Below are positions 7,366-33,342 of a stretch of 33,342 nt of DNA, piece by piece (positions within the stretch are counted from its first letter, which is position 1; each line of letters begins with the position of its first letter). The stretch is from NCBI GenBank assembly GCA_024695225.1, contig JAILIO010000227.1, positions 1 through 33,342 on the forward strand, read 5' to 3'. Origin of the DNA: Lachnospiraceae bacterium (GTDB taxonomy: Bacteria; Bacillota; Clostridia; Lachnospirales; Lachnospiraceae). The position numbers and the translations under genes were made by a program. The notes under the pieces are model-generated. The model did no database searches and was not told the DNA's origin. It saw only the letters and a program-made list of their open reading frames with translations.

Positions 7366-7703
7366 GTCGAGAGGGACGGATGATCGCGGAGGATTCATTC
7401 CTTCGAGGAAAGTCCGGGCTTCACAGGGCGGGATGCCGGATAACGTCCGGCGGAGGTGACTCCCGGGATAGCGCAACAGAAATGATACAGCCCCTTTCGG
7501 GGAGCAATGGTGAAATGGCAGTGTAAGAGACTACCGGTCCTGCGGTAACGCAGGGCGTCAATGCAAGCCCCATCCGAAGCAAGACCAAACAGAGGACTCA
7601 GGTGCCCTGCCAGTCCTCAGGTAGGTCGCTAGAGACTGTCGGCAACGGCAGCCCCAGATAGATGATCATCCAAGACAGAACCCGGCTTACAGTTCCTCTC
7701 GAC
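7366..7703 (+). ncRNA. rnpB: RNase P RNA (bacterial, apparently A-type)
   Basis: GAGGAAAGTCCGGGCT, ACAGAAA, GTAAGAGACTACCGG, GATAGATGATCATCCAAGACAGAACCCGGCTTA conserved elements; 5' GTCGAGAGG pairs with 3' CCTCTCGAC (P1). Confidence 0.95.
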
Positions 7704-7738
7704 ATTTTTACTGACATGATTAAGGAGGCGATCTGAAA

Positions 7739-12205: not shown

Positions 12206-12637
12206 ATGTCACTCAGCAGACATAAAAAAAGAGAGCAGCTCTTCAAACTGCTTTTCAGGCTGGAATTCCATGACGAAATGGAAATGGAAGAACAGAAGAG
12301 GCTTTTTTTCGGGGAGAGACCGGATGGTGAACCGGAACTGACCGAGGAGGATATCTCTTCGATCAGCGGGAAATTCGACAATATCACCGGGAAACTTACG
12401 GAACTGGACGCTATGGTGTCAGAACGCACTTCCGGGTGGGATATAAACAGGATCGGGAAAGTGGAGCTTGCCATACTCAGGCTGGCTTTGTATGAAATGA
12501 TATACGATGAAGATGTGCCTGAGAGTGTTGCCATAAATGAAGCCGTCGAACTTTCCAAAAAATATGGTCAGGACAATTCTTCGTCCTTTGTAAACGGTGT
12601 ACTGGCGCTCTTTGCGCAGAAAGCAGAAGATGGCTAA
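12206..12637 (+). CDS. nusB: Transcription antitermination factor NusB
   Basis: RHKKREQLFKLLFRLEF...VELAILRLALYEMIYDEDVPESVAINEAVELSKKYGQDNSSSFVNGVL. Confidence 0.95.
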   Translation: MSLSRHKKREQLFKLLFRLEFHDEMEMEEQKRLFFGERPDGEPELTEEDISSISGKFDNITGKLTELDAMVSERTSGWDINRIGKVELAILRLALYEMIYDEDVPESVAINEAVELSKKYGQDNSSSFVNGVLALFAQKAEDG

Positions 12638-14042
12638 CGTCTCTAACATCTATTCGGTGTCTCAGATCACCGATTATATCAAGAGTATTTTAACAACTGA
12701 TACGTTGTTGAATGATATCAACGTCACCGGTGAGATCAGCAATTATTCTGTATCCAAATCAGGACATATATATTTTACCCTTAAGGACAGCAACACCCAG
12801 ATACCCTGCGTCATGTTTAAAGGAAAGATAAATAAGGGGCTGAGTTTTGATCCTGCTAACGGGGATAAGGTAACAGTCAAGGGGAGTGTGGATGTTTATA
12901 AAGAGGGAGGCAGGTACCAGCTTTACGCAGACAAGATTGAGCGTTCCGGCGTGGGAGAACTGTTTCGCAAGTTTGGAGAACTGAAAGTAAAACTTGAAGA
13001 AATGGGGATGTTCGATCGGTCCCATAAAAAGCCCCTTCCCCGGTATGTAAGCACTCTGGGGGTTGTGACGGCACCCGGAGGAGCCGCCGTAAGAGATATC
13101 ATAAAGACCGTGAGGCGTCATGCCCCGGGGGTTCAGATCATTTTGTATCCGACCCTGGTACAGGGGAAAGATGCTGCAGAGGGTATAGCTCAGGGCATAC
13201 AGGCATTGCAGTATACGGAAGCCCAGGTCATCATAGTAGGGCGCGGAGGCGGTTCCATCGAAGACCTTTGGGCGTTTAACGAGATGCCGGTGATACAGGC
13301 GGTCTTTAATTCTGAGATACCCATAATTTCCGGTGTGGGTCACGAGACAGACACCACCCTCTGCGATCTGGTGGCTGACTGTATCGCGTCCACCCCCACA
13401 GCTGCAGCGGAGATCGCGGTGAGCGGCACAGAACAGCTGGATAAAAGTATCAGGGAAATGAATGCGAAACTGGACAGTCTTATGAAAGCCTGTGTCAGGG
13501 AATACGGGATAAGGCTTAAAGAAGATATGTCAAGGCTCGACCTGCCCTGGGAGAGGACTCTTCAGAGATACAAAGACCATGTGAGGGATGACAGACCCCG
13601 GATGCTGCTCTCCTGGGAGAAGCTGGTATCCGTTTACAAAAACCGGACGGGAAACGATCTCACCAGGATCGGAATGCCCTGGCAGATGAATCTCAGGCGG
13701 TACAGGGAAAGGGTAAATAAGGACAATCTCAGACTGTCAAATCAAAGTCCCGAACGCAAGGTCAGAGATTATGAGAACAGGCTTGCTCATCTGTACGACA
13801 GAGCGGAGGCTTTGATCAACGCCAGGATAGAAAAGGAAAAGGGAAGATGCCGCATGGATCACGCGTCGCTCAAGGCCCTGTCCCCGGCTGAGAGGCTGAG
13901 CCAGGGGTACTCATTTACGGAAGATGAGAACGGTGTTCCCCTAAAGAGTGTAGGCGATGTGAAAAAGGGTATGGCGGTCAGAACTTATTTGAAGGGCGGA
14001 CATATAACATCCGAAGTCATGGAGGTTACGGAAGATGAGTGA
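12630..14042 (+). CDS. xseA: Exodeoxyribonuclease VII large subunit
   Basis: YSVSQITDYIKSIL...INVTGEISNYSVSKSGHIYFTLKD; VGRGGGSIEDLWAFNE; GHETDTTLCDLVAD. ATG at 12630 overlaps nusB end; supplied ORF extends upstream to 12597. Confidence 0.96.
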   Translation: MANVSNIYSVSQITDYIKSILTTDTLLNDINVTGEISNYSVSKSGHIYFTLKDSNTQIPCVMFKGKINKGLSFDPANGDKVTVKGSVDVYKEGGRYQLYADKIERSGVGELFRKFGELKVKLEEMGMFDRSHKKPLPRYVSTLGVVTAPGGAAVRDIIKTVRRHAPGVQIILYPTLVQGKDAAEGIAQGIQALQYTEAQVIIVGRGGGSIEDLWAFNEMPVIQAVFNSEIPIISGVGHETDTTLCDLVADCIASTPTAAAEIAVSGTEQLDKSIREMNAKLDSLMKACVREYGIRLKEDMSRLDLPWERTLQRYKDHVRDDRPRMLLSWEKLVSVYKNRTGNDLTRIGMPWQMNLRRYRERVNKDNLRLSNQSPERKVRDYENRLAHLYDRAEALINARIEKEKGRCRMDHASLKALSPAERLSQGYSFTEDENGVPLKSVGDVKKGMAVRTYLKGGHITSEVMEVTEDE

Positions 14043-17936: not shown

Positions 17937-18770
17937 ATGAAGAACTTTTTGATAATTGCAAATGAATACAAGGATCCGGAGGCTGCATACACCCGGCAGA
18001 TCATGTCCTATCTGGGAGAACACGGGGCCAGACGGGTCATTTCCATGCTGCTGGGGGATGAGAGCCGGGACCGCAAGATAGATATCCCCTACGGTATAGA
18101 GGCGATACTGGTTCTGGGAGGGGACGGCACCATGCTGCAGGCGGCGAGGGCTACCCAGTCTTCCAGAGTGCCCCTTCTCGGCGTAAATCTCGGCACCCTC
18201 GGCTATCTGACCGAAGTGGAGACCGATGACATCGAGAACGCCATAGACAGGCTTATGCGTGATGACTACGTCATTGAAGAGCGCATGATGCTGAAAGGTA
18301 TCGCAGGAGACCATGTGGGCAGCGCGCTGAACGACATCGTGGTCACCCGCACGGGAAAACTTCAGATCATCAGATTTGATGTATATGTAAACGGAATCCT
18401 TTTGAACAGCTTTGTGGCAGACGGTATCATATGCGCTACACCCACCGGCTCCACTTCTTATTCTCTTTCTGCGGGAGGACCGGTGGTTGAACCCGGAGCC
18501 CGGACAATACTGCTGACTCCCATCTGCGCTCACACCTTTCACTCGAGATCCATCGTACTCTCTCCTGAAGATGAGGTGGTGATCGAACTCTGCAAGGGGT
18601 CCGGCGACAGGACCCAGACAGCCGAGGTCAGCTTCGACGGGACAGACAACATCCCCTTGGAAGCAGGTGACAGGGTGACTATCACAAGAGCCGTGGAGAC
18701 GGCCAAGATCATAAAACTTTCCCAGGAGAGCTTCCTGAATGTTCTCAGCAGGAAGATGAGCGGAAATTGA
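17937..18770 (+). CDS. nadK: NAD(+) kinase
   Basis: LVLGGDGTMLQAARA; GVNLGTLGYLTEVE; ATPTGSTSYSLSAGGPVV. ATG at 17937 preferred over the upstream TTG. Confidence 0.95.
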   Translation: MKNFLIIANEYKDPEAAYTRQIMSYLGEHGARRVISMLLGDESRDRKIDIPYGIEAILVLGGDGTMLQAARATQSSRVPLLGVNLGTLGYLTEVETDDIENAIDRLMRDDYVIEERMMLKGIAGDHVGSALNDIVVTRTGKLQIIRFDVYVNGILLNSFVADGIICATPTGSTSYSLSAGGPVVEPGARTILLTPICAHTFHSRSIVLSPEDEVVIELCKGSGDRTQTAEVSFDGTDNIPLEAGDRVTITRAVETAKIIKLSQESFLNVLSRKMSGN

Positions 18771-18839
18771 GGCATTGACGGGCTCAGCGGAAATAAGGAC
18801 TTTGTTTTTGTTTGAGAAAGGACGGTGATCTTTTAATAA

Positions 18840-20510
18840 ATGCTTCGTGAGGTACATTTGAAAAATCTGGCTCTGATAGAGAGTGCAGACATTACATTTA
18901 ACGACGGCCTGAACATAATGACAGGAGAGACCGGAGCCGGGAAATCCGTGATCATCGGCTCTGTTGCTGCAGCGCTGGGGGGACATGCGGACCAGAGCCT
19001 TATAAGACACGGCGCTGAATACGCCCTGATCGAACTCACCTTCGACACCGCGGGAGACCAAAGGGTCAGCGGGATGCTTTCGGAAATGGGTATCGATGAC
19101 GCAGGGGATGAAGTCCTGATACAGAGAAAGATATCGGAAAAGCGCAGCGTTATCAGGGTGAACGGTGAGACAGTCACCCTTAAAGCCATAAGATCCATAG
19201 CCCCTTACCTGATGGACATCTACGGTCAGAAGGAGCATCAGACATTGCTGTCTTCGGCTTCCCAGGCGGATGTGCTGGATTCCTGGGCAGGGGAGGAACT
19301 GTCCGGGCTAAAAGAGAAGATATCCGGCCTCTTCACGGAGATCAGAGGGATAAATGAAGAGCTTTCGGAGGAGGAGCGGGACGACCGCACAAGACAGAGA
19401 GAGGCAGATCTTGCTGAATACGAGATAAATGAGATAGACTCAGCAGATCTCAAAAAGGGTGAGTACGAAGAACTTCAGTAATATGTCAGGAAGGCCGGGA
19501 ACTCCGGCAGGATCAGGGAAGCCCTGGAAAAGGCGGTGTCCCTGTGCGAGGGGGACATGGTATCCGATGCCGTGAGGGCTGTAAGGGACGTGTCCGCTTT
19601 GGACCCCGGTGTGTCTGCCCTTGAAAGCGAACTGGAGGAGATCGATTCCCTGCTGTCCGATTTTATCAGGGAAGCCAATGATCAGATCGCTGATCTCTCC
19701 TTTGACCCAGAGGAATACGACCGGGCGGTGAAGAGGATGGACACCCTGAACCATCTGCAGGATAAATACGGAAACAGCTACGAGGCCATTATCTCCTACA
19801 GGGATGAGAGGGAGGAACTGTTAAATAAATTCAGGGACTGGGAGAATTACAGGGATAAGCTCCTTCAGAAAAAGAAAGAAATAGAGAAGAAACTTAAGGA
19901 TCTGTGTTCAAAAGCCCATGACATCAGGGTGAAGGCCGGGGAGGATCTGTCTGAACGTATGACTGACGCCATGAGAGGTCTTAATTTCCTGGATTCCAGG
20001 TTCAGGATAGACATACTCTGCGACAACAAGACCATCACCAGGACCGGCTGGGACACGGTGTGCTTTATGGTGTCCGTGAATCCCGGGGAGGATCTGAAAA
20101 GCGTTGCGGATACCGCGAGCGGAGGCGAACTATCCAGGATAATGCTGGCGCTTAAGACTGTCACCGCAGAGAAGGATGACGTGAGGGCCCTTATCTTCGA
20201 TGAGATCGACTCCGGCATAAGCGGCAGGACAGCTTTTAAGGTGTCTGAATCCCTGGGGGAGCTTTCAGGCGGCAGACAGATCATCTGCATCACCCATCTG
20301 CCCCAGATCGCAGCCATGGCAGATACCCACTTCCTCATAGAGAAGGAGACGGACAATACGGTCACCAGGACCCATATAAGGGAACTGGACGAGGAAGGAA
20401 GCCTTAAGGAACTGGCCAGAATGGTGGGAAGCGATGAGGAATCGGACGCAGCCCTGGAGAACGCCGCGGAACTTAGGAGGAAGGCGGCAGAGGTAAAGGG
20501 AAAGAAGTGA
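18840..20510 (+). pseudogene. recN: RecN DNA repair ATPase interrupted by one in-frame TAA (19479-19481)
   Basis: 18840-19481 (Walker A TGETGAGKSVIIGS) and the continuation 19482-20510 (VADTASGGELSRIMLALK; LIFDEIDSGISGRTA; CITHLPQIA) share one reading frame; reading through gives about 556 aa, normal RecN length. Confidence 0.9.
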
Positions 20511-31642: not shown

Positions 31643-33342
31643 TAAGGCTGTTAGATAAAGAGACCATAGACCGGATCGCCGCCGGGGAAGTGGTGGAGAA
31701 CCCCAGGTCTGTGGTGAAGGAGCTGGTGGAGAACTCATTTGACGCCGGTGCCCACAGGGTGACCATCCAGATAAGGGACGGGGGCCGGAGCCTGATACGG
31801 GTGTCCGACGACGGCTGCGGCATAGAAGCGGGAGAAGTGCTGACTGCCTTTGAACGCCACGCTACCAGCAAGATAAAGAATTCGGACGATCTTTCATTTA
31901 TTTCCACCATGGGCTTCAGAGGTGAGGCCCTGTCAAGCATAGCGGCAGTGTCCAGGACGGAACTTGTGACCAAGTGTGAAAAGGACCTGACCGGAGTCAG
32001 GGTCACCGCGGACGGAGGACAGATCTCGGAACCAGAGGAGATCGGCGCCCCCGGGGGCACCACTGTCATAGTGAGGGATCTTTTCTTCAATGTGCCCGCC
32101 AGGCGGAAGTTCCTGAAGACCGCAAGGAGCGAGGCAAATCAGGTCTATGACACGGTGGTAAAGCTCGCTCTTTCAAGGCCTGACGTTTCGGTATCCTATA
32201 TCCAGGACAACAGGGCGGTATTTCAGACCGGCGGAAATAATAACCTCAAGGAGGCCGCATACCGGATCTTTGGGAAGGAAGTCACAAAGAGCCTGATCCC
32301 TGTGGAGTTCGGGGACGACGAACTGGGGGTCCGGGTCAAGGGGTATCTGGGGGCGCCCTCGGAAAACCGTTCCAACCGGGAAATGGAGTATTTCTTTATA
32401 AACGGCAGGACCGTTTTGTCAAAGGTGTTTTCAAAGGCCCTTGAAGAGGGGGGCACGGGATTTTTCATGCAGCACAGATTCCCTGTGTGTTTCCTTCATT
32501 TCACCATAGATACCGACAGGGTTGATGTAAATGTCCACCCCTCGAAGCTCACGGTGAGGCTTCCGGACGAGCCTGAGATATACAACTTTATCTGTGACAG
32601 GGTGGCTGAGGCCTACAAGGCTGAGGAGCGGGTGCCCGACAGGGATCCCGAGAGCCGTGACCGCGGACCCGGAGCGGATATTAGGGAAGCATCGGCCCTC
32701 CCCGGCATGGTCAGGGATAAAAATGAGGAAAATGAGAGCTCTGCGCCAAAGACAGTGGAGAGAGGGACTCTCTTTGATGAAGAAAAGGACGAAAGCAAAG
32801 GCGCAGAATCCTTTGACGGCGACAGGCAAGAAGATCAGGACGAAAGCAAGGGCGCGGAGCTCTTTGACGACGATAAAGCCGGCAATAGTGGCAACGAACT
32901 CTTCGACGATGAAAAAGCCAGCAATAGTGGCGGCGAACTCTTTGGCGATGAAAAAGCCGGCAATAGTGGCGGCGAACTCTTTGACGATGAAAAAGAAGAC
33001 CATAACAGCGTAAATAAGGACGAAGAGCATTTTGCAGACGATAATGGCAACCGGCATTTTGATGACAGAAAATACATAAACAAAGGCAGTGATCCCGGCG
33101 AAGACACAATAAACGGGGCAGGCGGAAGGTCCTATAATGATCTGGACAATATGGAAGTCAGCAGTCCCGACGGTAATACATATAATAGCTCAGGCAGCAG
33201 TCCTGATACAGAAAACGGGGAAGATGGCAGGAAGGCATCCCCTGCTCCCGAATTGAACGATTTCAAAGAAACAACAGGTGAACAGGAATCCATGGATTTC
33301 GGGAACGATCCCGGAAATAAGGACCCCAGGATCCTTTCCGGG
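31639..33342 (+). CDS. mutL: DNA mismatch repair protein MutL (3'-truncated by window edge)
   Basis: Open for 568 codons to the window end, so absent from the ORF track; MIRLLDKETIDRIAAGEVVENPRSVVKELVENSFDAGA; STMGFRGEALSSIAAVS; ATGA overlap with mutS. Confidence 0.97.
   Translation, partial: MIRLLDKETIDRIAAGEVVENPRSVVKELVENSFDAGAHRVTIQIRDGGRSLIRVSDDGCGIEAGEVLTAFERHATSKIKNSDDLSFISTMGFRGEALSSIAAVSRTELVTKCEKDLTGVRVTADGGQISEPEEIGAPGGTTVIVRDLFFNVPARRKFLKTARSEANQVYDTVVKLALSRPDVSVSYIQDNRAVFQTGGNNNLKEAAYRIFGKEVTKSLIPVEFGDDELGVRVKGYLGAPSENRSNREMEYFFINGRTVLSKVFSKALEEGGTGFFMQHRFPVCFLHFTIDTDRVDVNVHPSKLTVRLPDEPEIYNFICDRVAEAYKAEERVPDRDPESRDRGPGADIREASALPGMVRDKNEENESSAPKTVERGTLFDEEKDESKGAESFDGDRQEDQDESKGAELFDDDKAGNSGNELFDDEKASNSGGELFGDEKAGNSGGELFDDEKEDHNSVNKDEEHFADDNGNRHFDDRKYINKGSDPGEDTINGAGGRSYNDLDNMEVSSPDGNTYNSSGSSPDTENGEDGRKASPAPELNDFKETTGEQESMDFGNDPGNKDPRILSG
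32882..32998 (+). repeat. 39-bp coding tandem repeats in the MutL linker
   Basis: Units 32882-32920, 32921-32959, 32960-32998 encoding (G/S)NSG(N/G)ELF(D/G)DEKA-like 13-mers; related diverged copies on both sides. Confidence 0.92.

Follow-up and report, generated by a model that had tools for sequence, protein, structure and literature searches.

Why does a recN gene that looks complete in every other respect carry a stop codon within its frame? The window analysed here, a stretch of 33,342 nucleotides from a Lachnospiraceae draft genome (contig JAILIO010000227.1), includes a recN frame on the + strand (18840–20510) whose sole interruption is a TAA at 19479–19481, with no indels and no other stop. 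A reading made from the sequence only had offered four options: a nonsense mutation of very recent date, an error made in sequencing or assembly, readthrough of the UAA, or a split RecN that still functions. The first two stand after the analysis described here, whereas the last two are unsupported. We put at roughly 53% the probability that a private single-base change from a Glu codon to TAA broke an otherwise intact and normally conserved recN.

Structure of the interrupted gene

The frame starts with the ATG at 18840 and runs for 213 codons up to the TAA, then for a further 342 codons to a natural TGA, whose last nucleotide is 20510. The two open reading frames, 18840–19481 and 19536–20510, share this one frame, and the coordinates given for them and for the TAA in the sequence-only reading proved exact. 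The read-through product matches the recN profile TIGR00634 with 423.5 bits (curated cut-off 407.85 bits), covering profile positions 1–560 of 563 over 556 positions including the one TAA, in agreement with the normal RecN length of about 556 residues proposed earlier. Without readthrough of the TAA, full-length homology above the cut-off is not reached. The location of the motifs is also as first described: Walker A (GETGAGKS) is in the N-terminal piece, and the signature (SGGELSR) and Walker B (ALIFDEIDSG), together with ITHLPQIAA, are in the C-terminal piece.

A RecN gene includes Walker A, the coiled coil, the signature and Walker B in one uninterrupted frame, and here that frame is broken at codon 214. 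In its full-length read-through homology, its complete set of motifs, its single copy and its congener-like neighbours the gene resembles typical members of TIGR00634, SMC-like ATPases that act in double-strand-break repair; it differs from them by the in-frame TAA, which is missing from the other RecN genes. A profile search of the genome revealed no second recN, the other matches being weak (20 bits or less). PDB 4abx, a fragment of D. radiodurans RecN that we take to be the coiled-coil domain, aligns with residues 182–324 of the congener protein, and the stop site lies inside that region. The GTG first suggested as a restart codon does have a weak ribosome-binding site, as had been noted, but an ATG downstream, preceded by GAGG, is a better candidate (Table 1).

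Table 1. Positions in the window of the two recN pieces, the premature stop and the candidate restart sites
Feature	Position	Strand	Basis
recN N-terminal piece: ATP-binding half-head, Walker A and start of the coiled coil; 213 aa, ends at TAA	18840..19481	+	Pfam AAA_23 (PF13476, 1.2e-13)
Premature TAA within the coiled-coil region; aligned codon of the congener is GAA (Glu214)	19479..19481	+	Alignment to congener
recN C-terminal remainder: rest of the coiled coil, ABC signature and Walker B; the natural TGA is the next stop	19482..20510	+	Pfam SMC_N below cut-off (26.8 of 40 bits); TIGR00634 above cut-off if read through
GTG, restart candidate of the sequence-only reading; weak ribosome-binding site	19536..19538	+	
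GAGG (19548–19551), 5-nt spacer and ATG (19557), better restart candidate for the C-terminal piece; Val in congener	19548..19559	+	

Comparison with the congener and other relatives

The one congener compared is a Lachnospiraceae MAG, Tb.RUG.206 (G001, contig JAEELB010000202.1). Its recN is uninterrupted and encodes a protein 73% identical to the window RecN. The residue replaced by the TAA, which had been proposed as a check, can be read from this alignment: the codon is GAA, one base apart from TAA, and there is no gap near the site. A frameshift or insertion at the stop was ruled out by this gap-free alignment. In more distant RecNs the residue aligned to codon 214 varies (E, T, A, D, K and others). 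The gene order xseA-xseB-ispA-dxs-tlyA-nadK-recN is common to the window and the congener, and the two contigs are collinear from rpoD to glgA, recN included, with the exception of an extra gene in the congener; this syntenic stretch shows no rearrangement at recN.

Neither half of the gene shows signs of decay. Measured against the congener, the part of the window gene that precedes the stop has a dN of 0.208 and the part that follows it 0.205 (dS is near saturation), and in both halves the window and congener proteins share equal mean residue counts, within one position, with 29 outgroup RecNs. Since dN is the same on the two sides and the window protein is as close to the outgroups as the congener protein, the half that follows the stop has not decayed, and the stop should thus be either very recent or an artefact.

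The stop is private to this assembly among the genomes surveyed. recN was found above the cut-off in 138 of 150 genomes of the family and in 133 of 146 of the order (the window genome being counted in each), and in both surveys the window genome alone has an internal stop. With the overlap removed, the 137 other family genomes and 132 other order genomes provide about 265 distinct uninterrupted recN genes. The sequence-only reading had specified that uninterrupted recN in sibling genomes would mean an error or a private mutation, and the congener and these genes leave the matter there. Two further candidates for a broken recN were rejected: in G130 the two matches lie on either side of a stretch of Ns in the contig, which removes it as a second case in the family, and in G032 the missing N-terminal part corresponds to a contig end. 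No recN copies were found in viral contigs.

One genus of the order is represented by four genomes (G463, G482, G511 and G518), none of which gave a RecN match better than 1e-6; one of them is a single 3.3-Mb contig with 95% completeness. Another genome, G526, from the same family as this genus, is also devoid of a convincing recN. Judged from these genome sequences, this looks like a loss of recN at the level of the lineage, and recN loss is tolerated in related lineages. A search of the literature on recN pseudogenes and on stop errors in metagenome assemblies yielded nothing useful.

Origin of the stop codon

The points for a nonsense mutation are the single lesion, the full-length read-through homology, the GAA of the congener, the intact relatives, the equal dN before and after the stop, the single recN copy and the tolerance of recN loss in related lineages. 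The ancestral codon would have been the GAA still present in the congener, and one base change would have generated the TAA. If the base is real, translation would end after 213 residues and leave a half-head with Walker A and without the signature or Walker B. E. coli RecN is described as having a central coiled coil that separates an N-terminal globular domain with Walker A from a C-terminal one with Walker B (PMC6856136). Because the two motifs are in separate globular domains, no activity is expected of the 213-residue piece by itself, and RecN would then have been lost in this strain by a change too recent to have been followed by decay elsewhere in the gene. The gene has the characteristics of an ordinary young pseudogene: one disabling lesion private to one lineage and seen in one genome only, intact relatives and no further decay. 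What was tested revealed no difference from such a pseudogene, the base in the window being that of the assembly consensus.

The same single-base difference from a sense codon, with no other decay, is also what would be expected if the organism's recN were intact and the TAA resulted from a consensus or assembly error, or from the assembler's choice of a base present in a minority strain. This is a serious contender, although we hold it to be somewhat short of an even chance. The genome is a fragmented draft (300 contigs totalling 2.28 Mb, with 87.9% completeness and 3.5% contamination) and has other lesions. On the other hand, the recN site is neither a homopolymer nor a repeat, the remaining genes of the 33-kb contig are all open, and there is no rearrangement at recN in the part syntenic with the congener. 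A coding-potential scan of 871 kb of the genome's contigs (818 kb in frames taken as coding), which recovered about 78% of simulated internal stops, listed 33 places. Ten of these were inspected by eye, and most of the remainder, where a start codon lies only a few codons away, were on this basis alone attributed to neighbouring genes. The internal stops found are those of recN and of one gene on another contig (C13). Of the 36 candidates from a frameshift scan, 11 were inspected, and one further lesion (on C41) looks real. Lesions in the draft are therefore few but present, and are compatible with errors or with a few young pseudogenes. Since broken copies of recN hardly ever occur in the family, a consensus error at the site is comparably likely; a recent loss of recN in the strain is slightly favoured over it.

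The C13 gene (L058, about 2172–2700, − strand) is a taurine-binding-protein-like ABC gene with a match to PDB 6ssy and carries an internal TAA and a frameshift. Short pieces upstream of it also look broken, and the congener has no copy of it. On C41 (L088, about 718) the apparent frameshift lies in a large protein, where the coding signal switches frame without a convincing start.

A functional gene would demand either readthrough of the UAA or separate synthesis of the two pieces, with a restart at 19536 or 19557 and the split RecN joined through the coiled coil. The motifs are kept and decay is lacking in both pieces, the break falls in the coiled coil, and an ATG with GAGG is located 75 nt past the stop. 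Absence of decay, however, is predicted alike by a very recent mutation, an artefact and retained function, and the non-conservation of the stop argues against retained function: it is seen in no other genome examined. Conserved readthrough or an established split gene would have both the stop and the restart site conserved in relatives, and the congener has GAA at the former and Val at the ATG of the latter. The UAA is followed by U, and U at +4 is described as reducing readthrough in the E. coli and yeast results of one source (PMC5289835). TAA is an ordinary terminator here: in the contigs sampled, which cover part of the genome, it closes about 150 other open frames, and none of the seven tRNAs found there is a suppressor. 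For these reasons there is little to support either conserved readthrough or an established split RecN, and we regard a functional gene of either kind as very improbable. The narrower version, in which this one species has a RecN of two pieces, the C-terminal one made from the ATG at 19557 and the halves joined through the coiled coil, is more improbable still. An SMC-like ATPase that functioned in split form would be of real interest, but no evidence found here points that way. An altered genetic code was ruled out by the open state of the other window genes and by the TAA-terminated frames of the sampled contigs.

No new mechanism is indicated, and the locus represents either an ordinary mutation that has recently disrupted a gene or a wrong base in the assembly. 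If the nonsense mutation is real, the strain would be without RecN and its double-strand-break repair should be poorer, an ordinary strain-level loss. Gene calling on this draft would split the gene into two fragments, and its annotation should flag recN as disrupted.

Other features of the window

In clostridia argR is often found between nadK and recN. Here nadK directly precedes recN (window 18770–18840), with no argR between them, in both the window and the congener. XseA (window 12597–14042) has 481 aa, about 50 residues more than the 431 aa of the congener protein, and includes an apparent internal repeat within its coiled-coil part. A class A RNase P RNA (RF00010, 302.8 bits) is located at 7368–7705 (+). 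Two CobW-type GTPase genes follow immediately, and a long His/Asp-rich repeat is present in the first of them. The MutL linker (window 32800–33100) includes a degenerate tandem repeat with units like GNSGGELFDDEKA.
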